Origin: Spongilla lacustris
Taxonomy: Eukaryota > Porifera > Demospongiae > Spongillida > Spongillidae
Length of the DNA stretch: 64,000 nucleotides
NCBI GenBank assembly: GCA_949361645.1
Contig: OX442423.1
Span: 7,720,624 to 7,784,623, forward strand
Reading direction: 5' to 3'
Made by a program: the position numbers and the translations under genes. Below, piece by piece: positions 14,608 to 63,215 of the stretch (position 1 is the first letter of the stretch; each line of letters starts with the position of its first letter). The notes below the pieces were generated by a model. It did no database searches. It had not been told where the DNA came from and worked only from the letters and a program-made list of their open reading frames with translations.

Positions 14608-17600
14608 TCATGTCCTGGTTTCACATTCTTCTCTAAACTTAGGCCCTCCAACAGCCTCATAAGCTGAATCATCTTTCCCTAATATGTGGCCAACAATATC
14701 ATAAAATCAAACTAATGCCTACTGCAGTGTACCTTTATCTGTTCTTGGTATCATTCCATATGCTGTGTTCTCCTTCACATTAACAACCTCTAAAGTGAGT
14801 TATAAAAGTAAAAATCAACTAAAGAGTAATGCACTAATATACTGCCTAATAGGGAAAACGTTTATGGAAAGCCAAAGACAAGACCCAATATAAATTTACA
14901 TTGGGTGCAGTGACAAAATGTTGATAAACAATTAAAGTTTAACATAAAGATCCATATCTTCCTTATGTACCACTGCATAGGCTGGTTCAGCCTTCTTCTG
15001 TTTTATTAAATTTGCTATAGAGTGGAATAGAAATGCTGTTTTAACATAATAATAATTATTGATCTAAATATGTATGTGCATCACTTTAGGGTTCTTGCTG
15101 GTTTAAATTGTGATGCACATTAAAGCAGCAACAAATGGAAGTTTTAGTAACAGCAGAAAATATTGGCCAACTAGGAGATTAATGTTTCAGATCAATTTCT
15201 TATATTAGAGCTGGCTCAAATTAAAGTATATATGTAAAATCATGATTTGCTGTTTTAATGAAACCAATTAATTACTGTGTTGTTAATGAATAGTAAGTCA
15301 TCATACATTATAGTTTGAAGAACAATTACATAAGCTTTCACACCCTCCTTATCTTTGCTAAATGGTTATGTACCGTCTAATCATAACTGCGTATAATTAC
15401 ATACCAGTACTTTGGATAGCAAACGATATGTACCTTCCTTATGTACCACTCCATAGGCTGTGTTCTCTTCCAGCACCACTGGTTCAGTATTCTTTAATTT
15501 TATTAAATTTGCTATGTATAGTGGAACAGAAATACTGATTAAAAAAAAAAAGTTACATGTGTTATCATATGTGTACAATATAATCTACCATACATACCTT
15601 CCTTATGTACCACTCCATAGGCTGTGTTCTCCTCCAGCTCCAATGGCTCAGTATTCTTCTGTTTTATTATGTGTGCTGTTTGATGGAGTAAAAATATTTA
15701 CATCAGTGTATGTATGAAAATTTATCAAATGTCAAATGTCATAAAATGTCAAAAATAAGTGTCTATTAAAGCTAATTGAACAAAACCTTAAACTGAATGT
15801 TTTCAATTTCCACTGCTTAATAATGCAGTATGTTATCATGCAATATATTTTGACTTGTTGTTGAACAAATGGAACATCAAGTGACTGCCCTAAATGGCTG
15901 TATACATTCATAGTACTACAGTGTACACTTCTTGACTGCAGAAAAATATTATACAAAGGTTCATGTGTGTGTGTGTGCATGTGTGTGTGTGTGTGTGTGT
16001 GTGTGGATCTGATGCAACTTGTACAACATGAACTGCACAGTTGATGCAAGGGTATAAACTTACGTGTGCACATACTCCTACATAGGATGAGGCTGATAAC
16101 CATAATCATGATCAGCATTAGTAGAGAAGACACTCCTCCTATCACTCCTCCTAGTGCTGCACGTGAAAACAACTTTACTACAATGTTGTTCCTGCAACAA
16201 AGAGCTTCATGAGCACACATTAAGGGATACCTGCTCCTGACAGTCCAGATGGTGTATTGTCTGTGATTTGTTTGGAAATTGCAGTTACAATGGCATTTAG
16301 AAACTTACATGCAACCTCACCTTTGCTCACCCATGTTACATTTACAAATTCAGAGGTGCCAAATATATTGCTTGCAGAAACCATGAATGTGTATATGACA
16401 CCATCTCTTATATTGTTGATAACAACTGACACCTGCTGTCCATCAGAGTATGTGGGGAATGAATAGGTGGAGGGCATCATGTCCACTGAGGGCATGGAAC
16501 TAATTATGAACACAAATGTTCCAGTAGTTCCAGCACCAGATACAGCTGTACTCAAAGTCATGGTAACTGTCCCCTGTTTGGTAGAACTAACAATGGGCTG
16601 ATCAGGTGGAAGAGGAATACCTGAACGTGAGGGAATGTTATGCGTCTTAGTTTCAAAGTATTGTCACAAACCTTCTGTGATAAGAACTGGTCCACATACA
16701 ACATTGCTGCTGCCAACAGAGTTGTTGGCAAATATCTGGAATAAGTAGGATCTACCAATCATAAACTGTTCCCTAACTAGCACAGATGTTGCACTGGGTG
16801 TGACCAATGCATCAATAGGCTGGTACTGTTGTGTACTTGCTGCTAGAATGTATTCTATCTGAATTGATGTGACATTTCTTCCACCATTGTATGCCACTGT
16901 CCATGACAAGTACACACCACCACCAGTAGACATAGAACTATTGCACTGAAGAGTTGGAACTAAAACACAGATGGTGTTATCACTACATACACATGTAACA
17001 TACACAAACACTCTTACCTGTGGGGACAGTACTGAAGGTCACTATGTTACTTGAAGGACCAGATGCTGAAGCACTGCCAAAAATGCTCACAGCCACAACA
17101 ATGATGTCATAGGACAATCCAGGAAATAATTGTGAGAAGAGAACAGAAGTTGCATTTACTGTCATCATTCGATTATTTGGATCAAGAGGTGAAGTTGCTG
17201 TGACTCTGTATATGGTGAAAGGAGGGACTCCTGGGTAAGATGGAGCCAGCCAACTGATGTACAACTGGGTGTGGTTAACATCCACTGGGTTAGATATGAC
17301 ATTGCTAGGTTGAGAGGGTGGTACTAGACAAAGTAAACATGGTAAGAGCTATTACAGTGCATGTCCATATATGGCTTACCAAGGATAAACAGAAGTATAC
17401 TCACAATGTGAGGTGAAAAAACACCATTATTAAGAGTGCATGTCCAGGTTCCATTATCACTCAAAGCAGTACTGGATATATTCAAGTAGACAATGTCAGG
17501 TCCACTATTAAAGACATATCTTCCTCCAGTTGACAATACTGTCCCATTATTGTCCCTCCACAGGATGGTGGATGAAGGGTTACTTCTGAGGTTTGTACCA

Positions 17601-20600
17601 CACACAAGGGTCACAGGTTGTCCAAGAACTGCTGCCACCAGGGAGGGGCCAGTTGTGATTACTGGAGGGACTGGTACAGAAAGGAATATAAAGATTCACT
17701 TTGCACAGAAATCAAACGACATACATAGTATGTTCAAGTTGAAACTTCCACTTGAAGATCCAATTATGCTGCCACCATTCAGTCTACTGTTAGTGGTAGT
17801 CAACACATAGCTGCCACTATTGGCTTGTGTTAGTCCACTCAATGTCAGGTTAGGATGGCTGTACTGTAGCTGAGCTACACTTAGTGTACCATTCCCAGTA
17901 ATGGTGAATGATGATGGAGCAGGGTATGGAGGAGGTGAGGATGTATCTCCAATCTGGAAGGTAACTGAACCATTGCTCAGACCTGTGACTTTACCCACTG
18001 ATTTCAACACTGGTGGGCCTAAAAGAGGAAATGAACACATTTATAGTATGAACTCTATTAGCTATTGTTTCATTTAGTTTATATTCTGGCATTCCATACA
18101 TGTACATGTATACTGCAGTATTGGTACGTGCAATTAGGCCTTTAGGGTCGAGTGCTAACTGGCAGTGAATGTGTATAGCACTGGCTGAAATTGCTTGGTA
18201 CTATCATGCCACTGAGCTCAGGTGCTGTACATATGCAACATCAACTGTGTGGAAATGTCCCGCTGGCTTCATTAGTTTAACACTGAGTCTTCACATGTGG
18301 CCTTGCAGTGACGCAGTGACTGTGCATGGGCAGGTGTGTGCACTATCTTTAAAAGATCTAGTAGGTGGTATTTAATTGGCACAAAGGGAAATAGATGGCT
18401 CTATGATCATGTGGGATCAATGCTGACAATGCTTCCTCAAAAGAAAGCTGGCGAATTGTTTGCTCCATTGCACTGATGATGATATCAGGCAGGCACTGAA
18501 GAAAGGTTCACATTAAAGCTGCCTATTCAAAGATGAGTAATTATTTCTTTATGGGATTTTGCCAATAAGAAACCACTGAGTACCAATACAATTCAGATGG
18601 GTCTAATAGGTGTGAAGTAAAATGGCACCTGCATCTGGATAAAGTGAGACACTTAGATTTAACCATGTATCGGGCTTTGGAGAGTAGATACTGTTATACA
18701 TTGTGTCAAGCAATAATTCATAGTAATGCATCGTCAATTTAACCCTGCTGTAACTACGATCTCTCGGTCTCAGTGTCTAACCTTTATTTAGAAATTTCAT
18801 AACTGAATATAGAATTGGTGATAATAATATTCAATATTTGTATCTATTAGTGGACCTAGTTAACTCCAAAATATGCCACTGCTTATCATTCTAACTATTC
18901 ATGACAAAGAGTGACCAATTTTCAGAGACAAGCACTTCCAAGGTATGGTGCACTTGTGACTTTGAGAAAGGTTTGCAAAATTGTACGCACTTCAAACTCA
19001 AACAGCCCACTTATCAAATAAGCATATCAACAAGAAAGGGACATTATAGACCAGGTCCAAGAACAAACTATTGTATCAGTATGTGGCATAGTACAGCAAT
19101 AGTAATAGCTTACAAAGTGCAGTGTACTATTCACAACAATTACATTCTAAATAAAGTGCACTTTTTATTATATGCCTGAAACAGTTTATAACCAATGACC
19201 AACTTAGTTGAATTATTACTATGCTTGTAAAGTGCGCACAAGCTTTTTTGTAGGCTCACTTTAGACAGGAACTAGAGCACATTGATAACCCAAACCAGGG
19301 AGGAGATTGCACTCTTTAAGGCCACTCCAATAAGATTCCTTGTTTCCCATTTCAATAGGACATAAAAGGCATGCGGGCGGGCGGTTCATTATTCATTATT
19401 CATTATTATAAATTGAATATGTATTAAACACAAACCACAACTTACACGTTATGCAACGTCTTTAATATTTAAAAAAGGTTGCCCTCACACAACAGTAAAA
19501 AGTTAAACGAAACTAAAGGGGAAGGATACTCAACAGCTCACACGCCCTGGCCCACTAGAAGATTCAGTCATGTAACGGAACGTGACGTCACGTAAATGTA
19601 TGTACCGTTTCTTCCAATCCCTTTATTCTATTATCTATGCTGGTCAGGGTTGCCGAAGGCCAGGGGTCTAGCCTATCAGGCCGGACCACGCCCACCCTAA
19701 GTATCATGCAGTATGTTAGGCGAGTTCTTATTCAAAACTCAGACATCAACTTGTACTATTATTACTTTTTACTGATTTACGTCAAATGGGTATACAAATC
19801 CAATTTTTATATTTTGCAATAGTATTATAATTTGTTACTACTGAGGATCTGGTGCAACCAATAAATGCGAAGTACTGAAATGACTTTACACATTCACCAA
19901 ATTAATGCACGATTGTAAATCATAACTAACAAAAGCAGCAGAATTTCAAATACATTGTATACATGTGTAGCGTACTAGCGGCTAAGCAGGAGCGTACATA
20001 ATATTGGCTTATTGCATTGGAAGCAGCCATGCATTATGCTTTAGCATAATATATTGAAGCTTCCAGCTGTTGGGGAAGTATAGATTCCATCGTTAACGCT
20101 CCTGGATCAACTTGGCTCTTTAAATTACACATTCTGAAGGGGCAGATGAAGCTGGAATAGCGAGGTACTTTATTGCAATAGTAGGGAATTGTGAGTTGAT
20201 GATGGACCAAGAGAATTGCCGATCGACATAGCGGCGCGGAGGCAAAATCAGCGTATCAACTAATTAAAAACCAAATAATTGGCCTGACAGGTCGGCCTAT
20301 CAGGTCAGGCAGTCAGGCCGGCCGGCCTCAGGCCAGACCCCTGGCTGGCCTACGGCAACCCTGATGCTGGTGGCCACCTCCGCTTTAACTAAATCCATCC
20401 AGGACAGCTATAGATGTGCTTGAAAGACGTGGTCGAATAGAATCTACGAAAAGGAGTGTTCTGCTTCAATCCAAGGAAGTAAAGTAGTTTTTCTAGACGA
20501 ACACGCAACAGATACGTTCAAGATAGCCATTTTTTTTATGTCTATGATAAAAATAATGGATGTTACGTGACACGTGATCTAATAATGAACGAAAACATGC

Positions 20601-20862: not shown

Positions 20863-20916
<54 letters not shown>

Positions 20917-21379
20917 ACACAAACAGAAACGAGAAGTGACTTACGATATATCTTCAATACAAATGAAGTGGTGTTAGGCGTGTTTTGATTATAACAGGTG
21001 ATTGTCGCACCGTCTAAGTCACTGGTCACATTCAATACGGTGAGATGCGATGCAAGGGTTGTGTTAAATGGTGTCAAGTCGCTACTCAACATGAACGTGG
21101 AGGTAGACACGGTGATAGCAGTGGTAGCTTTACCCAGTTCGGTAACAGTCCACCTAGTAGTCTGTTGATAAAGTACTCCACCAAGATTTGCGTACCCAAT
21201 GCAGTTAATTGTGGGACCTGGTTCATTTAGATCGTACGAAAACAGCGTCCCAGCAGACGGAACGGTGTCCAAGCGCTGAGATATAGCTGAGACAGAGATA
21301 AATGACCTTTGCGAAGGAAGTACAGCTTACCTGTTGAAGTCAGAGTGGTTGCAAACACGAGCACAACAACGGGTCCCAT
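14608..21379 (-). CDS. Receptor A: 3 Ig + 3 FN3 + TM + ITSM/ITIM tail
   Basis: Fourteen exons join in phase (about 777 aa): 21331-21379, 20945-21286, 17725-18018, 17380-17670, 17018-17323, 16672-16959, 16321-16620, 16231-16260, 16064-16156, 15598-15675, 15434-15511, 14958-15014, 14733-14789, 14608-14678. Every internal exon is phase 1-1. Order: signal peptide (1-16), Ig1 with paired Cys (TINC...TITCY, 17-130), Ig2 without Cys (to 228), I-set Ig3 (LVCG, ILW, GTWTC; to 325), three FN3 domains (to 623), stalk, TM helix (about 634-664). The tail carries TAYGVV twice, PAYAVV, TAYGMI and C-terminal SAYEAV. TxYxx[VI] is the ITSM consensus and SxYxxV an ITIM; these would recruit SH2 proteins. The donor of the 14958 exon is AT instead of GT, so that 57-nt exon is probably skipped, without a frameshift. 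Start chosen as the first Met before a hydrophobic segment. Confidence 0.85.
15967..16004. repeat. TG microsatellite in receptor A intron
   Basis: TG/CA simple repeat in the intron between the TM exon and the first tail exon of receptor A. A shorter version lies at the same place in B (26711-26742). Confidence 0.9.
19645..20363. mobile_element. hAT-like non-autonomous transposon with 8-bp TSD
   Basis: A 719-bp element with inverted ends (CAGGGTTGCCG at 19645, CGGCAACCCTG ending at 20363) and further inverted GGCCAGGGGTC/GACCCCTGGC sequence inside. It is flanked by an exact 8-bp direct duplication ATGCTGGT (19637-19644 and 20364-20371). CAG-type ends and 8-bp duplications are hallmarks of the hAT superfamily. 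It sits in intron 2 of receptor A, is absent from the same intron of B, and encodes no transposase. Confidence 0.87.
20867..20914. repeat. CA microsatellite near Ig1 donor of receptor A
   Basis: About 23 CA dinucleotides in intron 2 of receptor A, starting roughly 30 bp downstream of the Ig1 exon donor. Length variation here could influence splicing, but that is speculation. Confidence 0.9.
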
Positions 21380-21503
21380 TTTTGTGACTGAAAAGTGAAA
21401 GCTTAACAGGACTGGAAAGTCAATCTTCATGCACCTATTATATACTGAATCACCGATTATTTCTCCATTTGACTCCAAATGCTCGCGGTATCGAACCCCA
21501 GTT

Positions 21504-25343: not shown

Positions 25344-28300
25344 TCATGTCCTGGTTTCACATTCTTCTCTAAACTTAGGCCCTCCAACAGTGTCATAAGC
25401 TGAATCACCTTTCCCTAATATGCAGTGGCCAACAATATCATAAAATCAAACTAATGCATACTGCAGTGTACCTTTATCTGCTCTTGGTATCATTCCATAT
25501 GCTGTGTTCTCATTCACATTAACAACCTCTAAAGTGAGTTATAAAAGTAAAAATCAACTAAAGAGTAATGCACTAATATACTGCCTAATAGGGAAAACAT
25601 TTATGGAAAGTCAAAGACAAAACCTAAATATATTTACATTGGGTGCAGTGACAAAGTGTTGACAAACAATTAAAGTTTAACATAAAGATCCATACCTTCC
25701 GTACATACCACTGCATAGGCTGGTTCAACCTTCTTCTGTTTTATTAAATGTGCTATAGAGTGGAATAGAAATACTGTGTTAACATAATAATAAGCATCTA
25801 TAATTATTGACCTAAATATGTATGTGCATCACTTTAGGGTTCTTGCTGGTTTAAATTGTGATGCACATTAAAGCAGCAACAAATGAAAGTTTTAGTAACA
25901 GCAGAAAATATTGGCCAGCTAGGAGATTAATGATTCAGATCATTTTTTAAATATTAGAGCTGGATCAAATTAAAGTATACATGTAAAATCATGATTTGCT
26001 GTTTTAATGAAACCAATTAATTACTGTGCTGTTTATGAATAGTAAGTCATCATACGTTTTAGGTTGAAGAACAATTACATAAGCTTTCACACTCTCCTTA
26101 TCTTTGCATGGTTATGTACCATCTAATTATAACTGTGTATAATTACATACCAGTACTTTGGATAGCAAAAGATATGTACCTTCCTTATGTACCACTCCAT
26201 AGGCTGTGTTCTCTTCCAGCACCACTGGTTCAGTATTCTTTAATTTTATTAAATTTGCTATGTATAGTGGAACAGAAATAATGATTTAAAAGAAAATGTT
26301 ACATGTGTTATCATATGTGTACAATATAATCTACCATACATACCTTCCTTATGTACCACACCATAGGCTGTGTTCTCCTCCAGCTCCACTGGTTCAGTCT
26401 TCTTCTGTTTTATTATGTGTGCTGTTTAGTGGAGTAAAAATATTTACCTTCAGTGTTTTTATGCCTGAAAATTTATCAAATGTCAAATGTCATAAAATGT
26501 CAAAAATAATAGTGTTTACTAAAGCGAATTGAACAAAATTAAATGTTTTCAATTTCCACTGCTTAATAATGCTGTATGTTATCATGCATGCAATATGTTT
26601 TGACTTGTTGACGAACAAAGGGAACATCAAGTGATTGCCCTAAATGGCTGTATACATTCATAGTACTACCATGTACACTTCTTGACTGCAGAAAAATATT
26701 ATACAAAGGTTCATGTGTGTGTGTATGTGTGCGTGTGTGTGGATCTGATGCAACTTGTACAACATGAACTGCATAGTTGATGCAAGGGTATAAACTTACA
26801 TGTACACACACTCCTACATAGGATGAGGCTGATAACCATAATCATGATCAGTATCAGTAGAGAAGACACTCCTCCTATCACTCCTCCTAGTGCTGCATGT
26901 GAAAACAACTTTACTACAATGTTGTTCCTGCAACAAAGAGCTTCATAAGCACACATTAAGGGATACCTGCTCCTGACAGTCCTGATGATATATTGTCTGT
27001 GATTTGTTTGGAAATTGCAGTAACAATGGCATTTAGAAACATACATACAACCTCACATTTACTCTGCCATGTCACATTTACAAATTCAGAGGTGCCAAAT
27101 ATATTGCTTGCAGAAACCATGAATGTGTATGTGACACCATCTTTTATATTGTTGATAACAACTGACACCTGCTGTTCATCAGAGTATGTGGGGAATGAAT
27201 AGGTGGAGGGCATCATGTCCACTGAGAGCATGGAACTAATTATGAACACAAATGTCCCAGTAGTTCCAGCACCAGATGCAGCTGTACTCAAAGTCATGGT
27301 AACTGTCCCCTGTTTGGTAGAACTAACAATGGGCTGGTCAGGTGGAAGAGGAATACCTGAACGTGAGGGAATGTTATGCGTCTTAGTTTCAAAGTATCAT
27401 CACAAACCTTCTGTGATAAGAACTGGTCCACATACAACATTACTACTGCCAATAGAGTTGTTGGCAAATATCTGGAATAAGTAGGATCTACCAATTATAA
27501 ATTGTTCCTTAACTAGCATAGATGTTGTACTGGGTGTGACCAATGAATCAATAGGCTGGTAATGCTGTGTACTTGCTGCTAGAATGTATTCAATCTGAAT
27601 TGATGTGACATTTCTTCCACCATTGTATACCACTGTCCATGACAAGTACACACCACCACCAGTAGACATAGAACTATTGCACTGAAGAGTTGGAACTAAA
27701 ACACAGATGGTGTTATCACTACATACACATGTAACATACACAAACACTCTTACCTGTGGGTACAAGGTCACTATGCCACTTGAAGGACCAGATGCTGAAG
27801 CACTGCCCAAAATGCTCACACCCACAACAATGATGTCATAGGACAATCCAGGAAGTAATTGTGAGAAGAGAACAGAAGTTGTATTTACTGCCATCATTCG
27901 ATTATTTGGATCAAGTGCTGAAGTTGCTGTGACTATGTACATGGAGAGAGGAGGGACTCCTGGGTAAGATGGAGCCAGCCAACTGATGTACAGCTGGGTG
28001 TGGTTAAAGTCCACTGGGTTAGATGTGACATTGCTAGGTTGAGAGGGTGGTACTAGACAAAGTAAACACATAGTAAAGCTACTACAGTGTGCATGTCCAT
28101 ATATGGCTTACCAAGGATAAACAGAAGTATACTCATGCTGAGAGGGGCAAATACACCATTATTGAGAGTGCATGTCCAGGTTCCATTATCACTCAAAGCA
28201 GTACTGGATATATTCAAGTAGACAATGTCAGGTCCACTATTAAAGACATATATTCCTCCAGTTGACAATACTGTCCCATTATTGTCCCTCCACAGGATGG

Positions 28301-46827: not shown

Positions 46828-49800
46828 TTATTTTTTGAATGTAGGTCCTCCAACAGTCTCATAAGCTGAATCATCTTTCCCTAATATGCAGTGGCCAACA
46901 ATATCATAAAATCAAACTAATGCATACTGCAGTGTACCTTTATCTGCTCTTGGTATCATTCCATATGCTGTGTTCTCTTTCACATCAACATGATCTGGAG
47001 GAAGTTAAAATAGCTTCACTGAACAACTTTATATAGAATCAATTTGCAGCGAAAACTAGAATGCATAGATCCCTTAGTAGCATCATACCCACAGCCCTCG
47101 TTATAAATCACTCATCTCAGTGTATCTCACTGAAAACTGGGGTAGGAGGCTTATGTGGCCAAAAAAATAGAGTTATACAGCATGTTACATGTATTTGTCA
47201 ATCCACTAAGTTAATTAATGTAACATGATATTGTTGTGTGCTCAGCATAATGTATACCTTCCTTATGTACCACTCCATAGGCTGTGTTCTCCTCCAGCTC
47301 CACTGGTTCAGACTTCTTCTGTTTTATTGTATTCACTGTGTAGAGGAATAGAAATGCTAAATGGGTTGTGTAAATGTAAATAAAAAAGCTGATCAATTGT
47401 TTACAAATGTTGAAACCATTTTGCATTGAACATAACATTATATTTAATCAAAATATATCTATTTTAAAATAGGAGTCAAGGTTTGATTTTACCCAATGAT
47501 ATGAATGTATGCTGTGTAGTTAATCATGCTGCAGTATAGATACAAGAAAATAAATAAACTCATGCAACCATGAAATTAATAAAGTAATGTTCCTCCATTT
47601 CCTGATGAGCAAATGAAGTTCAATGCTTGAACAATTGAAATGTAAGGCTTATCATATATTCAGTGACTTGTAACTCTGTCGTGGGTAGTCAGATTCTCAA
47701 TGCAGAAAATTTTTATTATAAAGGATGTTGCAGAGGTTCCAGCAAATTGAAACACTTGCCATTTTTGTAGAGATCTTCCACATACATGGTAGGTAGCATT
47801 GTAAGAAACAACTTATCATCATCATGCCCTATTTCATTAAGGCACTTGCACACCCACACATACAAACTATAAAACGATAGAGCTTTAGGTAATTGACCAT
47901 GAAATTGTACAGAGTGATATTTGTGGAAAAATTTCTTGTATGTACACCTAAATTAATTGTTAATGAAATGAATACATGTGTGATGTAGCCAGCATACTGC
48001 CAAAATAAGTCAGATAACTAAATATGAAAGCTATGTAATTTTAAAATCAAGACTGTGCAATCTCCTATATACCGGGTGTCCACGAAAGAACGCAAAGCTT
48101 TTAAATGAATATAATTCCTTAATTGGATTAGCACTATAAATGCATTTATGAACATACAGTGAATAAGGTAGGCAAATATGAGCTGCATTATCTTTAATAA
48201 TTCAAAAGATAAAATCAAATAACTTGCAATCAATTGATTTAGCACAATAATGTTCGACAACTTTTTATTAAGTGAGAGATTTATAAACTGCAGATAAACT
48301 TTGATAGAAGTTTGAAAAAATATGAAATTTCATTGGTGTTTTACTAGTTAATTAATATTCAAAACAAATAATCAAACTTGAAAATGGTAAAGACCACTAC
48401 AATATTAATGAACTTTGATTTTTAATAACTCACCACTACATAATTCAATACCAAATAACATGGTGTTTCCTACGTCATTTAAAAATTAGTGGTGGTGATT
48501 AAATCTTAGCAGCTTTAACCTTAATAACTTACAAGCAAGTTATGGTCTTAAATGATAATAACTCACTATTGAACTCAGTAACTTAAAATCAATGCTGTTT
48601 CACTGCATATTCAGATATTCCGTTACTTATTGATGGTTATTAAAATACAATTATCTCTAACCATTATCCTGAATAATTTTGATAATCGAGGGTTTTGAAT
48701 ATAATCAAGGGTTTTGATATAAGTATAATAATTTAAATCTAATTGAATTGCTAGTATTTGCCTATAAGTACTGTAACATACGTTCAAAACATAAAATGGT
48801 TAGTTAACTTTAATCATGAGTTATAGTGATTGAAAAGCGTTGCGTTCATTTGTGGACACCTGGTATTTATATATTTGGAATCTTAATTTTGGAGGCCTTT
48901 CTATTGTGATTTAATACTAAACGTGGCTCAAAGAAGTGCAAACATTACATGTAGGCATTTAAAAATACAATTCAAACTAATGAGAAGGAAAATATACTAG
49001 GTAATAGTAATAGATACGCAAGAGTAGGAATAGGATGAAATACAACTGCAGTTTTTTGGTGGGAATATGACCCTGAAGTGCTACACTAAAGTCAAGATGA
49101 TATGATATGCATGATGGCTGGATGACCGATCATATAATGGTGGAATGAAATAACATCGGCTATGCTAGGCTTTTTACTCTATCAAACAATCTAAGTACTT
49201 TTATTTTCTTGACACCAGTTTGATTTACGTTATTTTGTGTTTAGGAAAATAATTTCACCCACCAAACCATCATTTACCTCTGCGACGCACAATGAAGTAG
49301 ATGACCACAATGGCAATCAGAATGAGAAGTACTCCAATAATGGCTCCAAGGACTCCTCCAGCTATTGCACCAGTAGCACTGCTGTTCTGAGCTGTAGGGG
49401 ACCACAGTAACTTTCACAATATCTGAAACCTGAGGTATTACCTGATGGTGATGTTGATGTACTAGGAGGTGATGGTGTTGCTATTTATTAGAGACAATGC
49501 AATAATAACAGTACCTGATACACTGCATGGTTATCATTTAAGAATGACCCTCCATGTGTGCTTGTGTTTTTTTTATGTGTGTACTTGCTGGATGTGTGTG
49601 CTGTACATGTGTGCACATGTATAAATAGCTCAAACTTACTTCTTACAGTCACAGGATCAGAGGTGCCATATACGTTACTGGCATATACACTGAAGAAGTA
49701 CTCAACACCTTCTCTTAGATTGGTGACATTTACGGTCACCTTGGCACCAACGATGTTTAATGCAAATGATTGGTTCACATACAAGTTGGGATCAGCTGAT

Positions 49801-51885
49801 ACCACATAAATCATAAATGATCCAGTAGCTCCTGCACCTGTAGCTGTTATACTTAATGTCAATACAACCCAGGTTGGTCCAATGGTAGAAATGGTGGGTG
49901 ATTTGGGTGCAGGAGGTATCCCTGGATATATAGCAGATGTTGGTAAGCAAAGATCTGATACTCACATACTGCATGTTACCTTCAGTAATGGTAACTTGTC
50001 CACAGGTAATTAACGTACTGTTACCAACAATGTTTGACGCTGAGACCATAAAAGCATATGTCAAACCAGCTATGAATTGGTCTATGATGATGGCTGATGT
50101 CATACTGGGTCTGGGTGAGGAAACAGTTCGGATGGCTTGATAGTTCCCACCAACTTGATTGTATGCTATCTCAATGGCAGTCACTGGTCTTCCACCATCA
50201 TATTCAATGACCCATGAAACATTCACATTGCCTGGACCAGCAGCCAAAGGACTACACATCACAGTTGGGACTGGGGAGGAAGCACACACATAGCCAATGC
50301 TCACTGAACCACACCACCACATCTACTAACTAACCATCAAGATCTGTGCTCAGGACTAAGGTGGTACTTGGATTGCTCACAGCATTTGTAGCTCCTATGC
50401 TGCTTATAGCATAAACAGTGATGTTATAAGGCAAACCAGCCAGTAGCCCATAAATAGTAACATAGGTCTGGGCAGCTGTTACATTAGTGGTGTGGTTAAT
50501 TGGATCATGAGCTGATACTGCAACTACTGTGTACAATGACAATGAAGGGACCCCACCGAGCAGTGGGGGCTGCCAACTGACATATAGCTGGGATTTGGTG
50601 TTAGTGAGAGGGACAAGTCCATTGGTCACATTTAGTGGCTGAGATGGTGGTACTGTGAGGAGAAAAGGTAACTATGGTAATGGAACCAGAGAAGAAAGAA
50701 AACAAACATTCCTCACCAAGGACAAACAGAGATATGTTGACCAGTATAGGAGCAAGGATGCCATTTGATAACATGCATGTCCATGTTCCATTAATGGTCC
50801 AGTCAACATTGGATATGTTTATCAGGACTTTAGAAGGACCATTGTCAATAGAGTATCTCCCTCCACTGGTCACCACAGTCCCATTGTTGGTCCTCCACTG
50901 AACAGTAGGAGCAGGGTTACCCATGAGGTTAGTACCACACTGAAGGGATACTGGGAAAGGCTGTCCTTGGACTGCAGCTGTCTGTGATGTGCCTGCTGCT
51001 ATCACTGGAGGGACTGGAGGAAAATGAACACATTGGAAAATAAATTAAAAAACCTAATCCTTATAAGTCCAGAAAACATTACATTGAATGTTGAGTGTGA
51101 GTGTTCCATTTGAAGCACCCAGGAGTAGTCCATTGGTCTTAAAGCTTTCAGCAGTCAACACATAGCTGCCACTATTGGCTTGTGTTAGTCCACTCAATGT
51201 CAGGTTAGGATGGCTGTACTGTAGCTGAGCTACACTTAGTGTACCATTCCCAGTAATGGCAAATGATGTTGGAGCTGGATATGGAGGAGGTGAGGATGTA
51301 TCTCCAATCTGGAAGGTAACTGAACTGTTTTTCAATCCATTGACCACTCCCACCATCTTCAGAACAGGAACCCCTGAAATGCAAACATGTAGGTATTAGT
51401 ATAGGAAGACCGTCTTCTGTTACACTTACTGTATATTTTCACTGCGAACGTTCCTATCTGCTGAAATGATCCAGATATCATGATTCCGCAGGTAATAGTA
51501 CTTCCATCAAGGTTTTTTGTCACGTTCAAGATGGTCAAGTTGGTTTGTCCAAAACCTCCTACGGGTATTGTCTCATTGCTCAAGGCAAATACAGAAGAAG
51601 CGACAACGGTTTGCTCCCCGCTGCTATTAATAACCTTCCAAACTGTGTTTTGTTGAAATAGTGTTCCCGAAAGATTTGCATACCCTATACACGTAATGGT
51701 AGGTCCCGGCTGATTCAAGTCGGAAGAGAACGTATATCCGGACGGCGGATTGGAGGACGGGTTCGCCAGAGTTTGAGCCTTAGCTAAAGGATGGAAAACT
51801 GATTAAATGATCCTGTAATGATTTAGTAACGTTTCCCACCTGTGGAGAGTAGGCCTACCGTCATCATACTAGTAACCAGCAACAT
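46828..51885 (-). CDS. Receptor C: 3 Ig + 3 FN3 + TM + ITSM/ITIM tail
   Basis: Twelve exons join in phase (739 aa): 51840-51885, 51430-51783, 51083-51373, 50717-51013, 50335-50652, 49980-50270, 49640-49921, 49442-49480, 49278-49391, 47258-47335, 46938-46994, 46828-46880. Signal peptide MLLVTSMMTVGLLST; Ig1 (TITC...TITC); Ig2 without Cys; Ig3 (LQCG, VQW, GTWTC); three FN3 domains; Ser/Thr/Pro stalk; a TM helix like that of the gene at 138-4438, ending RRR. The tail has TAYGVV, TAYGMI and C-terminal SAYETV, one 78-nt cassette fewer than A, B or D. A MITE (48072-48863) occupies the long intron between TM and tail. No lesions were found, so this is the best candidate for a functional receptor. 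Confidence 0.87.
48072..48863. mobile_element. MITE with CCGGGTGTCCAC inverted ends, TA flanks
   Basis: Left end CCGGGTGTCCACGAAAGAAC and right end (inverted) CCAGGTGTCCACAAATGAAC pair over about 35 bp with a few mismatches. The element is flanked by TA (48070-48071 and 48864-48865). A TA duplication and no coding content suggest a Tc1/mariner-like MITE. Only its right half remains in the matching intron of receptor D (about 54440-54786). Confidence 0.8.
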
Positions 51886-53414: not shown

Positions 53415-56400
53415 TTATTTTTTTGAATGTAGATCCCCTCCAACAGTCTCATAAGCTGAATCATCTTTCCCTAATATGTGACCAACAATATAATAGAATC
53501 AAACTAATGCATACTACATTGTACCTTTATCTGCTCTTGGTATCATTCCATATGCTGTGTTCTCATTCACATCAACATGATCTGAAAAAGTTTTAAAAAC
53601 AGCTTCACTGAACAACTTTATATAGAATGAATGTGCAGTGCAAAACATGTTGATTTTTAAAAACCTGGACAAGGGATTTCTAAGTACCAGAATCCGTAGA
53701 TCCTTTAGTAGCATCATACCCACAGTCCTTGTTATAAATCACTCATATCCCTCAGTCTCAGTGTATCTCACTGGGGAGAAGGCTTATGTGGCAAAAGAGT
53801 TATACACCGGCCATGTTACATGTATTTGTCAATAAACTAAGTTATTTAATGTAACATGATATTGTTGTGTGCTCAGCATAATGTATACCTTCCTTATGTA
53901 CCACTCCATAGGCTGTGTTCTCCTCCAGCTCCACTGGTTCAGACTTCTTCTGTTTTATTACGTTTTCTGAGTATAGTGAAATATTGATTGAAAAGTCTAA
54001 AATGTTATCACATACATGTACAAAACAATCTGTGTAATCACTTTATTGTGTGATCAGCATAACGCAAATACCTTCCTTATGTACCACTCCATAGGCTGTG
54101 TTCTCCTCCAGCTCCACTGGTTCAGTCTTTTTGTGTCTTATCGTATTCACTGTGTAAAGGAATAGAAATGCTAAAAAAAATCAAATGGGGTATGTAAACT
54201 TAAATAAATAAAAAAGCAAATCAATTGTTTACAAATGTTGAAACCATTTTGCATTAACATAATATTATAATCAATCAAGGCATTAAAATGAAATATATAT
54301 CTATCTTTAAATAGGAGTCATGGTTTGATTTTACCCAATGATACGAATGTATGCTGTGTACATAATTATAATATAAACATGCTTCAGTATGGATACAAGA
54401 AAATAAATAAACTCATGCAACCATCAAATTAATAAAGTAATCAACCTTAATAAGCAAATTATGGTCTTAAATGATAATAACTCACTATTGAACTCAGTAA
54501 CTTTAAGTCAATGCTGTCCCACTGCATATTCAGATCTTCCGTTACTTATTGATGGTTATTAAAATCAATTCTCTCTAACCATAATCTTGAATAGTTTTGA
54601 TAATTGAGAGTTTTAAATATTTTGCTAATCAAGGGTTTTGATATAATTATAATAATTTAAATCTAATTGAATTGTTAGTATTTGCCTAAGTACTGTAACA
54701 TAAGTTCAAAAAATCAAATGGTTAGTTAACTTTAATCTTGAGTTATGTGAATTAAAAGCGTTGCGTTCATTTGTGGACACCTGGTATATATATTTGGAAT
54801 CTTGATTTTGGAGGCTTTTCTATTGTGATTTAAAAGTACAATACTAACACATGGCTTAAAGAAGTGCATCCACTCCAAATATTACATGTAGGCATTTAAA
54901 AATACAATCCGAACTAACGAGAAGGAAAATATACTAGGTAATAATAATAGATACGCAAAAGTAGGAATAGGATGAAATACAGCTGCAGCTAATATGACCC
55001 TGAAGTGCTACGCTACAGTCTGATATGCATGATGGCCAGATGACCGATCATATAACGGTGGAATGAAATGACACTATGGTAGGCTTTTTACTCTATTAAA
55101 CAATCAAAGTACTTTTATTTTCTTGACACCAGTTTCATTACTTTATTTTGTGTGTAGTAAAATAATTTCACCCACCCAACCATCATTTACCTCTGCGACG
55201 TGCAATGAAGTAGATGACCACAATGGCAATCAGAATGAGAAGTACTCCAATAATGGCTCCAAGGACTCCTCCAGCTATTGCACCAGTAGCACTGCTGTTC
55301 TGAGCTGTAGGGGACCACAGTAACACTCACATGCATATTTAAATGTTATATTTACCTGCAGTAGCATACCTGCACATCTTACCTTCAGTAATGGTAACTT
55401 GTCCACAGGTACTTAACATACTGTTACCAACAATGTTTGAGGCTGAGACCATAAAAGCATATGTCAAACCAGCTATGAATTGGTCTATGATGATGGCTGA
55501 TGTCATACTGGGTGAGGGAACAGTTTGGATGGCTTGATAGTTCCCACCAACTTGATTGTATGCTATCTCAATGGCAGTCACTGGTCTTCCACCATCATAC
55601 CCAATGACCCATGAAACATTAACGTTACCTGGACCAGCAGCCAAAGGACTGCACACCACAGTTGGGACTGGGGAGGAAGCACACACATAGCCAATGCTCA
55701 CTGAACCACACCACCACATCAACTAACTAACCATCAGGATCTGTGCTCAGGACCAAGGTGGCACTTGGATTGCTCACAGCATTTGTAGCTCCTATGCTGC
55801 TTATAGCATAAACAGTGATGTCATAAGGCAAACCAGACAGTAGCCCATTAATAGTAACATAGGTCTGGGTAGCTGTCACATTAGTAGTGTGATTAGTTGG
55901 ATCACGAGCTGATACTGCAACTATTGTGTACAATGACAATGAAGGGACCCCACTGAGCAGTGGGGGCTGCCAACTGACAGACAGCTGGGATTTGGTGTTA
56001 TTGAGAGGGACAAGACCATTGGTCACATTTAGTGGCTGAGATGGTGGTACTGTGAGGAGAAAAGGTAACTATGGTAATGGAACCAGAGAAGTAAGAAAAC
56101 AAACATTCCTCACCAAGGACAAACAGAGATATGTTGACCAGTATAGGAGCAAGGATGCCATTTGATAACATGCATGTCCATGTTCCATTAATGGTCCAGT
56201 CAACATTGGATATGTTTAGCAGGACATTGGAAGGTCCATTGTCAATAGAGTATCTCCCTCCACTGGTCACCACAGTCCCATTGTTGGTCCTCCACTGAAC
56301 AGTAGGAGCAGGGTTACCCATGAGGTTAGTACCACACTGAAGGGATACTGGGAAAGGCTGTCCTTGGACTGCAGCTGTCTGTGATGTGCCTGCTGCTATC

Positions 56401-57465
56401 ACTGGAGGGACTGGAGGAAAATGAACAAATTAGAAAAATAATTCCAATAAGTCCAGAATACATTACATTGAATATTGAGGGTGAATGTTCCATTTGAAGC
56501 ACCCGGGAGTAGTCCATTGGTCCTAAAGTTTTTAGCAGTCAACACATAGCTGCCACTATTGGCTTGTGTTAGTCCACTCAATGTCAGGTTAGGATGGCTG
56601 TACTGTAGCTGAGCTATACTTAGTGTACCATTCCCAGTAATGGTGAATGTTGGAGCTGGGTATGGAGGAGGAGAGGTTGGGTCCCCAATCTCAAAGGTAA
56701 CTGAGCTGTCTTTTAACCCATTGATTATTCCCTGAAACGTTTTCAAAACAGGAACCCCTGGAAGAAGTTACCATTGTGAGACAGGTAACTATTCTCTGCA
56801 AAAAGTTCTTGTGCAAGAGATCTTGCCCAAGACTTGCCCAAGATCTTGTCCAAGATGCCAAGATTATGTCGGGCAAAATCTTGACCAGGATCTTGCCTAA
56901 GATCTTGGGCAAGATCCGGGGCAAGATTTATCCTCTTGGGCAAGATCCTGACCTCTTGGGCACGATCTTGGCCATCTTGCACAAGAACTTGTTACACTTA
57001 CTGTACATTTTCACTGTGAACGTTGCTATCTGCTGAAATGGAGTGCCTATGATGCCACAGGTAATAGTACTGCCATCAAGGCCATTGGTCACGTTTAATA
57101 TAGTCAAGCTGGTACGCCCCGGACCCACGCCACCTGACAATGTCTCATTGCTCAGCGCAAATACAGAGGATGAAGCGCTGATTATGGTTTGCACCCCGCT
57201 GCTATTGGTAACTATCCAAACTGTTGTTTGTTGAAACGACATCCCTAACTGCTCTGCATACCCGATACACGTGATCGTAGGTCCCGGCTGATTCAAGTCG
57301 TAAGAAAACGTATATCCAGACGATGGATTAGATGACGCGTTCACAAGATTTTGAGCTTTAGCTAAGGATTATTGGATGGTTAGAAAATCACATAAAGGGA
57401 CTAGTTTCCTTACCTGTGGAAAATGCCGCTACCACAATAACCAAGAAAACTTCATACGATTCCAT
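53415..57465 (-). CDS. Receptor D: 3 Ig + 2 FN3 + TM + ITSM/ITIM tail
   Basis: Eleven exons join in phase (661 aa): 57414-57465, 57002-57361, 56467-56757, 56114-56410, 55732-56049, 55383-55667, 55191-55304, 54072-54149, 53889-53966, 53525-53581, 53415-53470. Signal peptide MESYEVFLVIVVAAFST; Ig1-3 and FN3-1/2 are close to receptor C. The third FN3 and stalk exons are deleted, and because both are phase 1-1 the second FN3 exon joins the TM exon in frame (ITEAQNSSATGA). The tail has two TAYGVV cassettes, TAYGMI and SAYETV. The ectodomain is thus shorter and lacks the Ser/Thr stalk. No stop or frameshift was seen. Confidence 0.85.
54440..54786. mobile_element. Truncated copy of the TA-flanked MITE
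   Basis: Matches the right half of the 48072-48863 element, ending GTTGCGTTCATTTGTGGACA then CCTGG. The left half and left inverted end are missing. It lies in the TM-to-tail intron of receptor D, so the insertion predates the C/D duplication and was later trimmed here. Confidence 0.78.
56803..56990. mobile_element. Foldback insertion of CTTGGGCAAGATC palindromes
   Basis: A 188-bp insert in the Ig1-Ig2 intron of receptor D; the matching intron of C is only 56 nt. Its ends are inverted copies (AAGTTCTTGTGCAAGA at the left, TCTTGCACAAGAACTT at the right). The interior is made of about ten direct and inverted copies of CTTGGGCAAGATC-like words. The whole insert can fold on itself. No target duplication is obvious. 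Confidence 0.75.
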
Positions 57466-59369
57466 CTTCCTCCAAACTGATCAGTGGCGTAGGGAGGGGG
57501 GGAGGGGGCTGAAATTCATTATTCATAAGTGGGTGTGGTAAGACGTAGCTGTCAGTTGCGGGGTGGCCAGGTGGGACCTGGTACCCAGGCCCTACCTGCG
57601 GGCTTAAATTACGGAGGCACCAAACGCGTCATGCATGGAGGCAATGACAACCAGCTTAATATCTGTCTTAATTACGTCATGGCTCACGAGACTTTGAGCG
57701 GTCTGGTACAGTGCAAGATGTGAAAAATTCTGATTTGTTGGTGCTATCCATGCGGTGGAGAATCGGGGGGATTGAGGATTCGATTATGCATATACATGTA
57801 GAGCAGCGACATTGTTCGTTCGCATTTTTGTTGACGACTGAAGTTTTAAACTCAACGGATCGAACAGCGATACTCATAGTGCTAGTTTCGTACCCAGACC
57901 CAAACGATAACATAGGTCCAGCGGATCACGTGATACTCATGTTTTATTAATTTGGTTGGCAAGTGTGTACATATGCTAATGGACGGCGTACTAAAATCTG
58001 GCTGCCAAAGTCGTTACAAGCAGAAATTGGAACCTGTTGGTCTGCAGTGAAGTTGTATCCCATACTTGGAATCTAACAGCCATCCCGATATGTCGTTGTG
58101 GCCACGGAAAGAGTTAGCCTGGTACCCAAACAAATGAACTATGGGCATATTTTTCATTAAAGAACTGGCACGTACACCCAGGAGCAGCTGCTTTCATGCC
58201 AGCAGCTCGAAGCCTACAATTTCTTCGAGTCTTCTGTCTACGTAATGGCATTCGTACTGCGTGGTATCACTGGTATAGGGGTCAAAGCCCTAGCCAGCTC
58301 TCACCTGGCTGATGTTGCACGATGACGTGAAGCTTGGATGATAGCTAAGTCAGACCTGACGGTTCTATTCTTTCTGGTCACTGCACATGCATGGCTGGGT
58401 AAGTGTTTAATCTTTCTTGCTTCGTAAACGAGAACACAGTCAGGACAAAGTCTACATCATTGCTGGGTCTGGGGACCCGACGGATGTTTACTAGTAGGTT
58501 TCCTGAGCGTAAACTGACACAGTGAAACTGAAGCGCTCGATCCCACATGGGAATGACACATACATACCAGATACAATATATAGTCACCACAGATCCGCGA
58601 GTGTACTATGGGCATCCAGTAGTGGGGCGTAGCCCGACCATACGCCACGGTCTGCTACGGCCAACCTGTTCTACCTTTTATCCATTTCTGTTGTCAGGGA
58701 TGATTCTTAGATGTAAAACGATAAAATCCAAGACTAGAACGTTCACCATGGCGACTTCTACAACCAATCGCACAGCAACTAACAACCATTTCTTAGGCAC
58801 GGACAATAAATTTGCCAACCAAATTTAATATTCATTGATTTTGGTCACGTGCTTGAGTGTCCATTGGACCTATGTGCATTTTTCGATTTCCTGCTGTCAA
58901 TATCCTTGGTGCAGCATTGCCGTATATAGAGTCTTTGCTGCACATTTCCTGCCTGCGGCAATGTCTAGTAGTAGTAGCCCTAAAGAGCCTTGCTGTGCAA
59001 TTTATGACATCGATTACTTCTGAATATGAGAAAATATCCACGAAAAGGGACCTAATGTTATTTTTATGCGAGATTCCTAGGTTCTCTACCTCTCTATGCA
59101 CTTGAAATTCGACTGTCCATATTAAGGGGCGGTGTAAATTTTTAATTACGCGTACAGGTCAGAATCGCTGCCATACCGATGCCTACGTATACGCTAGTGA
59201 TTTTAATTACTTACCACAAATTGTCTATAAAAATAAGAAACTAAATGCCGATTCCGTTCCGAAAATGGACCCATAGAGGTAATCAGCTCCTTTCTGCTCA
59301 CCGTGATCTCGCTTCTCGCCTAACAGATCGATATTAAATATGGGCCCAAAAATTAGAGTGAGGGGGCTT
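57466..59369. other. Intergenic, no recognised gene
   Basis: About 1.9 kb upstream of receptor D. CAGTGGCGTAGGGAGGG at 57483 resembles one end of a hAT-type element, but no matching inverted end was found. Open frames here are short and unlike known families. Confidence 0.5.
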
Positions 59370-59457
59370 TGCCCCCCCCCCCCCCCCCCCCCCCCGCCCA
59401 ATAATATCAAAAGTGGGGGGCGAGGGGGGGGACTACCCCCCCCCCCCCCCCCCCCCC
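59370..59457. repeat. Long poly-C runs
   Basis: Two C-runs of about 24 bases (59371-59394 and about 59435-59457) flank a GGGGGGCGAGGGGGGG segment. They directly abut the truncated receptor fragment beginning at 59466. This is a likely rearrangement or assembly junction. Confidence 0.85.
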
Positions 59458-59465
59458 TGACCCCC

Positions 59466-59942
59466 AGTCACTGGTCTTCCACCATCATATTCAATGACCC
59501 ATGAAACATTAACGTTGCCTGGACCAGCAGCCAAAGGATTGCACACCACAGTTGGGACTGGGGAGGAAGCACACACATAGTCAATGCTCACTGAACCACA
59601 CCACCACATCTACTAACTAACCATCAGGATCTGTGTTCAGGGCCAAGGTGGCACTTGGATTGCTCACAGCAATTGTAGCTACTATGCTGCTTATAGCATA
59701 AACGGTGATGTCATAAGGCAAACCAGCCAGTAGCCCATAAATAGTAACAAAGGTCTGGGCAGCTGTCACATTAGTGGTGTGGTTAGTTGGATCACGAGTT
59801 TATACTGCAGCTAATGTGTACAATGACAATGAAGTGGCCCCACTGAGTGGTGGGGGCTGCCAACTGACAGATAGCTGGGATTTAATGTTATTGAGAGGAA
59901 CAAGTCAAATGGTCACATTTAGTGGGTGAGATGGTGGTACTG
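59466..59942 (-). pseudogene. C/D-type receptor fragment (FN3-1 and part of FN3-2)
   Basis: Minus-strand sequence matching receptors C and D. The 5' part of the FN3-2 exon is at 59466-59565 and the FN3-1 exon at about 59627-59942. A TAA stop interrupts FN3-1 (GCAGTATAAACTCG where D has GCAGTTTCAGCTCG-type sequence). FN3-2 is cut off at the poly-C junction. No neighbouring receptor exons follow on this strand. Confidence 0.82.
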
Positions 59943-60313
59943 TGAGAAGAAAAGGTGACTATCCAGGTATACAAATGTAAGAAGGATGAAAAGGGTGCAG
60001 ACTGCTCAAATCTTTGACAGGCCAACCTGGGAACATGACTTAGGAATTGGGAGCATAGTGATTTACACACATACTAAATAAAACACATAAAAATTCAATT
60101 TAAAGTGCCAATAAAAGTAAAGGTGAACATATCAGAGATGCTGCATCATTTCGGAATGCTCTACAACATTGTCATTTGGACTAAATGTTTATCTAAAATC
60201 AATGTTCCACATCAACGGGGGTTGGGCTTGGGGGGGGGGGGGGGGGGTACATGGAGGTAGCGTGAACATGTCTATTTACATGTAATGCTTTGCACTCCAT
60301 TTCTCACTCACAG

Positions 60314-63215
60314 TCCCACCAGTGTTGAAATCAGTGGGTAAAGTCACAGGTCTGAGCAATGATTCAGTTACCTTCCAGATTGGAGATACATCCTCACCTC
60401 CTCCATACCCTGCTCCATCATCACTCACCATTACTGGGAATGGTACACTAAGTGTAGCTCAGCTACAGTACAGTCATCCTAACCTGACATTGAGTGGACT
60501 AACAGAAGCCAATAGTGGCAGCTACATTATGTATGTGTTGACTGCCACTAACAGTAGACTGAATGGCGGCAGCATAATGGGATCTTCAAGTGGAATTTTC
60601 AATTTGAATGTGCAATGTAAGCATTTGAAAGCAGATTTGAGACAGTCTCTGTAAATGATATGTTTCTATGCATTGAACTGCTAATCACAAGAAATGATAA
60701 GGGGCTGAATTTTTACTTTGCCTTATACAAACATTCCCTTTGATATTTACAAACATTCCAGAACAAGCAAATAAAGAGTAATAGTTGCTTTGAAATTTAA
60801 AAATCTGTGTTGTATAGCACTGTGACATTCAATTCATTTTGGAATCCATTATGTAGAGAACATTGAATGCTTTCAGAGCTTAAATGCGGGTATCATTTTC
60901 ACAGACTGTTGCATTCAATGTTTTTCTTCAGTCCCTCCAGTAATCACACCTGGCCCCTCCCTGGTGGCAGCAGTTCTTGGACAACCTGTGACCCTTGTGT
61001 GTGGTACAAACTTCAGAAGTAACCCTTCACCCGCCATCCTGTGGAGAGACAATAATGGGACAGTATTGTCAACTGGAGGAAGATATGTCTTTAATAGTGG
61101 ACCTGACATTGTCTACTTGAATATATCCAGTACTACTTTGAGTGATAATGGAACCTGGACATGCATTCTTAATAATGGTGTATTTTCACCTCACATTGTG
61201 AGTATACTTCTGTTTATCCTTGGTAAGCCATATATGGACATGCACTGTAATAGCTCTTACCATGTGCTTACTTTGTCTAGTACCACCATCTCAACCTAGC
61301 AATGTCACATCTAACCCAGTGGATGTTAACCACACTCAGTTGTACATCAGTTGGCAGGCTCCATCTTATCCAGGAATCCCTCCTCTCTAGTCACAGCAAC
61401 TTCACCACTTGATCCAAATAACCGAATGATGACAGTAAGTACAACTCTCACAATTATTTCCTGGATTGTCCTATGACATCATTATTGTGGCTGTGAGCAT
61501 TTTTGGTGGTGTTTCAGCATCTGGTCCTTCAAGTAACATAGTGACCTTCAGTACTGTCCCCACAGGTAAGAGTGTTTGTGTATGTTACCTGTGTATGTAG
61601 TGATAACACCATCTGTGTTTTAGTTCCAACTCTTCAGTGCAATAGTTCTATGTCTACTGGTGGTGGTGTGTACTTGTCATGGACAGTGGCATACAATGGT
61701 GGAAGAAATGTCACATCAATTCAGATTGAATACACTCTAGCAGCAAGTACACAACATTACCAGCCTATTGATGCATTGGTCACATCCAGTGCAACATCTG
61801 TGCTGGTTATGCAACAATTTGTGGCCAGTAGATCCTACTTATTCCAGATATCTGCCAACAACTCTATTGGCAGCAGCAATGTTGTACGTGGACCTGTTCT
61901 TATCAAAGAAGGTTTTTTGGGATTGCTTGAGATTAAAACACAATATAACATTTCACTCACCTTCAGGAATTCCTCTTCCACCTGACCAGCCCATTGTTAG
62001 TTCTACCAAACAGGGGACAGTTACCATGACTTTGAGTATAGCTGCATCTGGTGCTGGAACTACTGGGACATTTGTGTTCATAATTAGTTCCATGCCCTCA
62101 GTGGACATGATGCCCTCCACCTATTCATTCCCCACATACTCTGATGGACAGCAGGTGTCAGTTGTTATCAACAATATAAAAGATGGTGTCATATACACAT
62201 TCATGGTTTCTGCAAGCAATATACTTGGCACCTCTGAATTTGTAAATGTGACATGGCAGAGTAAATGTGAGGTTGTATGTATGTTTCTAAATGCCATTGT
62301 TACTGCAATTTCCAAACAAATCACAGACAATATATCATCAGGACTGTCAGGAGCAGGTATCCCTTAATGTGTGCTTATGAAGCTCTTTGTTGCAGGAACA
62401 ACATTGTAGTAAAGTTGTTTTCACATGCAGCACTAGGGGGAGTGGTAGGAGGAGTGTCTTCTCTACTGATACTGATCATGATTATGGTTATCAGCCTCAT
62501 TCTATGTAGGAGTGTGTGCACATGTAAGTTTGTACCCTTGCATACTGTGCAATTCATGTTATACACGTTTGCATCTGATCCCAGTATTTTTCCACACTAT
62601 ACATGCACACATATATGCTTCGCACTGTATTTTAGAGCATACAATAGTTTTCTGCGTGTACAGCCTTTTAGGGCAATCACCCACGTGATGTTCACTGTGC
62701 AATTCATGTTGTACAAGTTGATCCTTCGCATAGTATTTTAGAGAAATCATAGTACCATGCATGGTAGTGTAATATATGTGAACAGTCATTTAAAGCAATC
62801 ACCTGATGTTCCCTTTGTTTGTCAACATATTGCATGATAATATATGGCATTATTAACCAGTGGAAATTTTAAATTAAATTTTTTTTTTAAGGTTTTGACA
62901 ATCAATTAGCTTCTGTAGTTGCTAAAATATTTTTTTCTCAACTAAATAGCACACATAATAAGACACAAGAAGACTGAACCAGTGGAGCTGGAGGAGAACA
63001 CAGCCTATGGAGTGGTACATAAGGAAGGTATGTGTGTTATGCTGAACACACAATAAAGTGATTACACAGATTATTTTGTACATGTATGTGATAACATTTA
63101 ACATTTTTGAAACTTTTCAATCAATATTTCACTATACACAGCACACCTAATAAAACAGAAGGAGACTGAACCAGTGGAGCTGGAGGAGAACACAGCCTAT
63201 GGTGTGGTACATAAG
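60314..63215 (+). pseudogene. Receptor E: truncated plus-strand A/B-type copy
   Basis: Plus-strand exons matching A and B: Ig2 60314-60616, Ig3 60932-61222, FN3-1 61281-61565, FN3-2 61624-61911, FN3-3 61967-62266, stalk 62327-62356, TM 62431-62523, tail cassettes 62950-63027 and 63142-63215. Signal and Ig1 exons are absent, FN3-1 has two deletions that create a frameshift and a TAG stop, and the last cassette runs into unrelated sequence without the usual GAAG|GT donor. The final tail exons (TAYGMI, SAYExV) are missing. The other exons stay open, including a 9-nt insertion in Ig2. It is an inverted, broken duplicate. Confidence 0.85.

Follow-up and report, generated by a model that had tools for sequence, protein, structure and literature searches.

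The window analyzed here is a stretch of 64,000 nucleotides from the demosponge Spongilla lacustris (contig OX442423.1, referred to as C10, positions 7720624-7784623; the genome is 248.56 Mb in 51 contigs), and it lies within a cluster of genes encoding predicted single-pass receptors. Each receptor is laid out as a signal peptide, three immunoglobulin-like domains (Ig1, Ig2 and Ig3), three fibronectin type III domains (FN1, FN2 and FN3), a transmembrane (TM) helix and short tail exons. The first-pass annotation of the window had noticed such a cluster, which proves to be larger than it appeared there. When 100 kb was added on each side (a 264-kb stretch) and copies were placed by tblastn at E<=1e-3, the cluster was found to cover ~106 kb (C10:7,706,609-7,812,862) and so exceeds the window. 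Nine copies span Ig1 to TM (A, B, C, D, F, G, H, J and L, with D lacking FN3), and at least six fragments accompany them. To the left of the window are copies F and G (plus strand), and to its right are copies H, J and L (minus strand). The flanks also contain two further fragments, I and K, as well as a remnant of TM and FN3 (7716978-7717349); two runs of N in them fall outside the cluster. All of these results come from the DNA of a single haplotype. In a genome-wide search with receptor C, the matches that covered Ig1 were all inside the cluster (scoring covered 61 of the 275 first-look candidates); partial relatives are present at C4:9764809-9770228 and C10:2390704-2391667.

Genes A to D, all on the minus strand, were modelled by hand from tblastn matches and splice signals, and the exon junctions as modelled are GT-AG and in phase 1. 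In A, C and D the signal peptide, a single TM helix and a cytoplasmic tail are in one frame (topology judged by eye). Four full receptor genes had been proposed for the window; A, C and D have complete frames, but in B the FN1 donor has lost 7 bases (near 27754), a deletion that breaks the frame of B if the short FN1-FN2 intron is spliced out and not kept. No stop codon occurs within the in-frame blocks that were compared. The claim of at least four broken copies in the window holds, these being fragment E, an FN1/FN2 remnant, an FN3 remnant and a second Ig1 inside gene B. This last cassette has 76% alignment identity to the cassette of A and shares one stalk downstream with B's own. Duplication, inversion and domain loss are likewise evident in the multiple copies, the inverted fragment E and the missing third fibronectin domain of D.

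The new finding concerns the way in which divergence is partitioned along the gene. The copies belong to two types, A-type and C-type, and the number of synonymous substitutions per synonymous site (dS) in Ig1 is 0.370-0.929 in 17 of the 18 same-type pairs. Within types dS is 0.014-0.145 for Ig3, 0-0.123 for FN3 and 0-0.111 for TM, an exception being FN2 of C/D against F/G/J (0.19-0.26). Between types, Ig3, FN1, FN2, FN3 and TM have dS values of at least 0.82 or are saturated, and Ig2 is intermediate (0.36-0.69). The synonymous differences between A and B number 30 of 81 sites in Ig1 and 22 of 360 in the stalk (p=7e-12), and those between C and D number 36 of 83 in Ig1 and 14 of 225 in Ig3-FN2 (p=2e-13). 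Most of the variation sits in the membrane-distal Ig domain. The same step is seen in the DNA, introns included: A and B show 93.9% identity across 3,693 columns from 12 bases before the Ig2 exon of A, C and D are 93.0% identical over 1,411 columns from 6 bases before the Ig2 exon, and J and D are 93.5% identical over 1,408 columns from the Ig2 exon start. The Ig1 regions in whole-gene alignments are 71-78% identical. The gap between Ig1 and Ig2 varies from 52 to 2929 bases across the nine copies, and the four gaps that follow are 54-82 bases. The tail exons are nearly alike even across types, with mean synonymous differences per site (pS) of 0.137 for 16 T1 exons and 0.072 for 10 T4 exons. 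Purifying selection evidently acts between the stalk types (A/C Ig3-FN3 dN/dS about 0.3-0.6).

Some copies combine parts of both types. Gene H has a C-type Ig1 (split support 100; H is sister to C at 86), and its stalk falls outside the C-type clade (support 100); judged from these trees, H is a mosaic of a C-type Ig1 joined to an A-type stalk. A test for long identical runs, carried out on 28 gene pairs with 2000 shuffles each, detected cross-type runs at Ig2 codons ~37-81 in A/C, A/J, C/L and J/L (0/2000 shuffles each) as well as in B/C (1/2000) and B/J (3/2000), and none when A-types or L were paired with F or G. A conversion tract spans the two types in Ig2, and the sequence comparisons above show a stalk that ectopic gene conversion has kept alike.

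The domain assignments differ in quality along the ectodomain. Ig_3 and fn3 pass the Pfam cut-off in A and C, which supports Ig3 and the fibronectin domains and, together with the hand models of A, C and D, bears out the architecture proposed in the first-pass annotation, that is, an Ig-FN3 ectodomain, one TM helix and a tail of tyrosine motifs. For Ig1, the alignment has a V-like Cys-Trp-(DxG)-Cys pattern and structure prediction, which had been suggested as a check, gives a low-confidence model with an Ig fold, without an Ig-family match in Pfam. Ig2 retains an Ig-like 'SGSYVLT' segment and lacks the cysteines. The Ig1 and Ig2 assignments are therefore tentative.

The tails are assembled from cassettes. 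T1 (ENTAYGVV), T4 (ENTAYGMI) and T5 (DSAYxxV) are each on a separate phase-1 exon with one tyrosine motif apiece, and in the 264-kb stretch the motif tyrosine is retained in 16/16 T1, 9/10 T4 and 8/9 T5 copies. The repeated tyrosine motifs reported at first (TAYGVV, TAYGMI and SAYxxV) are accordingly real and recurrent. The ratio pN/pS is 0.46 for T1, 0.69 for T4 and 0.54 for T5. Immunoreceptor tyrosine-based inhibitory and switch motifs (ITIM and ITSM) have the consensus [SIVLT]xYxx[ILV] and TxYxx[VI], respectively, NxxY is a signal for phosphotyrosine-binding (PTB) domains and YxxPhi one for AP-2. Fifteen of the 16 T1 and nine of the 10 T4 exons fit both ITIM and ITSM, an assignment that is a consensus match only, and the same numbers also fit NxxY and YxxPhi; T5 fits ITIM alone (8/9) and has no N at -3. 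It is conceivable, if rather unlikely, that these are ordinary cell-adhesion proteins without an immune role, whose tails bind PTB or AP-2 adaptors via NTAY or YGVV. The double fit of T1 and T4 agrees with such a role, as does the fact that sequence matches among solved structures are mostly to titin and to neural adhesion proteins of the Ig/FN3 kind. T5 does not agree with it, and copy number, mosaicism and Ig1 divergence set the family apart from single-copy adhesion genes.

When the motif was written as a degenerate codon pattern, it had 39 matches in the genome, and the backwards pattern had 37. By number, then, the matches do not exceed chance, but their clustering does: 24 are in the receptor cluster, six in one 8-kb array on C10 and seven in a tandem array on C15. 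The C10 array (C10:7303583-7311638, within C10:7303001-7312500) has 8-9 T1/T4-like tail exons behind a different TM frame, and another receptor thus has the tail cassette in common with this family. The array on C15 (C15:6551001-6560500 and C15:6552598-6614571) belongs to another receptor family with a TM and tails reading NVVYDEVTL and ENAAYGV; neither of the two frames tried gave a Pfam match.

On balance, we consider it somewhat more likely than not that the locus encodes a tandem family of single-pass contact receptors that has been shuffled by conversion and has phosphotyrosine-motif tails. The membrane-distal, V-like Ig1 would carry the binding specificity of each receptor, and Ig2, Ig3 and the three fibronectin domains would serve as a shared stalk homogenized by ectopic gene conversion. 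Once phosphorylated, the tail motifs would recruit SH2 proteins, most simply a SHP-type phosphatase, and engagement of Ig1 would then restrain the cell. Conversion and unequal exchange would build mosaics with a different Ig1 on a common stalk and tail, and such mosaics would spread new specificities while one output is kept. An outer domain that changes while a single output is preserved is a design expected of recognition receptors, and the pattern seen here fits it. Support for this explanation comes from the nine copies with their stop-free blocks, the far denser synonymous differences in Ig1, the identity step at Ig2 and the uneven Ig1-Ig2 gap, the mosaic H, the cross-type runs in Ig2, the retained motif tyrosines and the purifying selection between stalk types.

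Several results weigh against this explanation. The Ig1 dN/dS is 0.21-0.63 over the 18 same-type pairs and below 1 in all of them, so that the diversifying pressure proposed in the first-pass annotation, which had named this ratio as a check, is not borne out as diversifying selection in the strict sense. In favor of the explanation, replacements are denser in the BC and FG loops than in the rest of Ig1, 2.34x in C, D, F, H and J (0/123 circular shifts as high) and 1.96x in A, B and L (6/123). However, the loop limits were set after a sliding window had been inspected, and therefore this concentration is suggestive only. Synonymous differences do not rise in parallel, as loop and elsewhere pS are 0.363 and 0.436 in the first group and 0.321 and 0.310 in the second; loop pN is at most about equal to pS. 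The Ig1 domains of F and G, evidently a recent duplicate, are nearly identical (dS 0.024). The stalk is not uniform, as FN1 of L has a dS of 0.53-0.65 and FN2 of H/L against A/B/E one of 0.29-0.43. For the placement of H, the approximately unbiased (AU) test rejects a grouping with the A-types for Ig1 (p 0.028), and it rejects neither alternative in Ig2 (p 0.51/0.49) or in the stalk (0.82/0.18). Fibronectin type III gene clusters are also common elsewhere in the genome, with matches clustered on C1, C2, C7, C18, C21, C22 and C24 (150 of 1305 candidates scored), and the step in dS could reflect chance conversion of the stalk.

Chance conversion would be the whole story if the cluster were a neutral birth-and-death array in which parts of the stalk were homogenized and Ig1 merely escaped. 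The absence of any dN/dS above 1, the numerous broken copies and the frame lesion in B would all be expected from such an array. We nevertheless think it quite improbable, since the Ig2 boundary recurs in three pairs and in both types, the replacements are concentrated in the Ig1 loops and the motif tyrosines are conserved. The broken copies would also suit a birth-and-death family of innate receptors that sense microbes or symbionts and whose Ig1 has been diversified through host-microbe conflict. Sponges harbor dense microbes, and immunoglobulin-domain genes are reported to respond to microbial signals in two sponges (PMC6208332). The Ig1 ratios below 1 speak against such receptors, which we regard as a possibility on the unlikely side.

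Table 1. Features of the receptor cluster in the window (positions in the window; aa, amino acids)
Feature	Position	Strand	Basis
Gene A, signal peptide to stop, 12 exons, 755 aa	14608..21379	-	hand model, GT-AG, phase-1 introns
Gene A Ig1 exon, V-like variable module (predicted)	20945..21286	-	hand model, fold model, divergence
Gene A Ig2-Ig3-FN1-FN2-FN3 exons, stalk homogenized with B	16321..18018	-	Pfam; 93.9% block from 18030
Gene A TM exon	16064..16177	-	tblastn, hand model
Gene A tail exons T1a, T1b, T4, T5 (TAYGVV, TAYGVV, TAYGMI, SAYEAV)	14608..15675	-	
Gene A T3 exon, GA where GT donor expected	14959-15012	-	
Gene B, built like A, frame lesion	25344..31050	-	hand model
Gene B Ig1 exon	30609..30947	-	hand model, divergence
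Second signal-peptide and Ig1 cassette within gene B, stops present	29530..29967 (Ig1 29823-29530)	-	
Gene C, 12 exons, 739 aa, extra short linker exon	46828..51885	-	hand model
Gene C Ig1 exon	51430..51783	-	hand model, divergence
Gene C TM exon	49278..49391	-	hand model
Gene C tail exons T1, T4, T5	46828..47335	-	hand model
Gene D, 11 exons, 661 aa, third fibronectin exon missing	53415..57465	-	hand model
Gene D Ig1 exon	57002..57361	-	hand model, divergence
Gene D tail exons T1a, T1b, T4, T5	53415..54149	-	hand model
Fragment E, inverted A-type, Ig2 to second T1; no Ig1, FN1 partly deleted, stops	60314..63215	+	
C/D-type FN1 and partial FN2 remnant, stops	59457..59940	-	tblastn
A-type FN3 remnant, one stop	12558..12797	-	tblastn
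Gene G TM exon (ectodomain left of window, C10:7718459-7720593)	229..339	+	tblastn

No T exon was found downstream of the gene G TM exon in the window. A possible short last exon at 681-712 (+), noticed by eye, reads GATYNIDNEK-stop, and it is possible that this is an alternative end giving a gene G receptor without an ITIM-like tail. Other features of the window include two pieces of DHHC palmitoyltransferase genes at 11041-11448 (+, below the Pfam cut-off) and 37100-37345 (-, above it), whose opposite orientation suggests a segmental duplication with inversion. Between genes B and C are Trichohyalin-plectin-homology exons (42567-43915, +), which we take to be CFAP45-like, and at 38.8-40.3 kb there is a minisatellite of ~1.5 kb of the GGGAAGGAGGAA type, in which several reading frames of either strand are free of stops. 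Elsewhere in the assembly, the mitochondrial contig C51 (28,044 bases) encodes cox2, atp6 and cox3 (Pfam) and, by reading with code 4, cob and atp9, with tRNA genes arranged as G, V, (cox2), K, (atp6), R(ucu), (cox3), Q, W(uca; ARAGORN tca), N, (cob), T, (atp9), S, P. The genes atp9 and trnR(ucu) are extra genes of demosponge mitochondrial DNA, in which +rns+trnG+trnV+rnl is the commonest arrangement (PMC2444032). If C51 comes from the animal that carries the cluster, this gene content very probably marks the host as a demosponge.

The current candidates for allorecognition in sponges are the aggregation factors, which are extracellular proteoglycan core proteins and not Ig/FN3 receptors. Sponge surface Ig proteins, some described as polymorphic, are familiar from Geodia cydonium (SAM/GSAM and an Ig receptor tyrosine kinase); these are short with two Ig domains, whereas the receptors described here have three Ig domains and fibronectin domains, and we know of no tail cassettes, FN3 domains or mosaic cluster in the Geodia molecules. 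Among vertebrates, PD-1, SLAM, LILR, KIR and Siglec receptors have the same consensus motifs in single-pass IgSF tails, and in the clustered ITIM/ITSM families the membrane-proximal parts are homogenized as they are here, a comparison made at the level of the Ig fold. The Geodia Ig molecules are mentioned in PMC11999971 and the aggregation factors are cited in PMC12065747. Our literature search, which did not cover most subscription papers, found no account of a comparable sponge cluster.

The rejection of foreign tissue by sponges is highly specific (PMC5450542), and the cluster could be an allorecognition complex in which Ig1 alleles mark individuals and a match at Ig1 leads to a signal for inhibition or fusion. 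A variable distal domain with the remainder homogenized is what such a complex would have, and the organization resembles two known ones. The FcoR (fester co-receptor) family of Botryllus schlosseri also has a V-type distal Ig, a TM, an ITIM or YxxI/L/V tail and a single-locus cluster (PMC12065747). Its ectodomain includes a sushi domain between the V-type and a C2-type Ig, and FN3 is not mentioned in the excerpted text, whereas Pfam found no sushi domain in A and C; alternative splicing swaps its tail motifs, and the sponge motifs are on repeated cassette exons as modelled. The Alr genes in the allorecognition complex (ARC) of Hydractinia symbiolongicarpus are clustered single-pass IgSF genes with many pseudogenes and a variable ectodomain (PMC11067881), and their candidates carry ITIM/ITAM-type motifs (PMC12065747) comparable to the ITIM-like sponge tails. 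Still, clusters of this kind also serve in microbe sensing, and in the excerpted text of a sponge graft transcriptome study the word 'immunoglobulin' does not occur (PMC5450542). We therefore consider allorecognition a rather doubtful role. A broader idea would make the cluster the receptor arm of a recognition complex in sponges, with germline conversion re-pairing variable Ig1 domains, common stalks and a cassette-exon tail; it seems to us unlikely to a similar degree.

The Alr-like interpretation in the first-pass annotation thus stands for the clustered Ig/FN3 receptors, the tyrosine tails and the distal-Ig variation, and is not borne out for strict diversifying selection. The sponge cluster has the clustered IgSF loci and pseudogenes of the Alr family, although it has three FN3 domains, belongs to a demosponge and is likened by organization and not by sequence; for Alr, polymorphism and genetics are established, whereas the sponge cluster is known from one haplotype. 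The parallel is a good analogy of organization and not demonstrated membership. According to a 2025 review, the proteins put forward for allorecognition in sponges, in cnidarians and in ascidians are not related to one another, and ITIM/ITAM-type signalling recurs in cnidarians and ascidians (PMC12065747). A variable Ig receptor cluster with ITIM-like tails provides a concrete locus for asking whether this signalling logic is older. If the broader idea of a sponge recognition complex is correct, the cluster would represent a combinatorial 'variable-constant-signal' design, and recognition clusters with tyrosine motifs would reach back to sponges.

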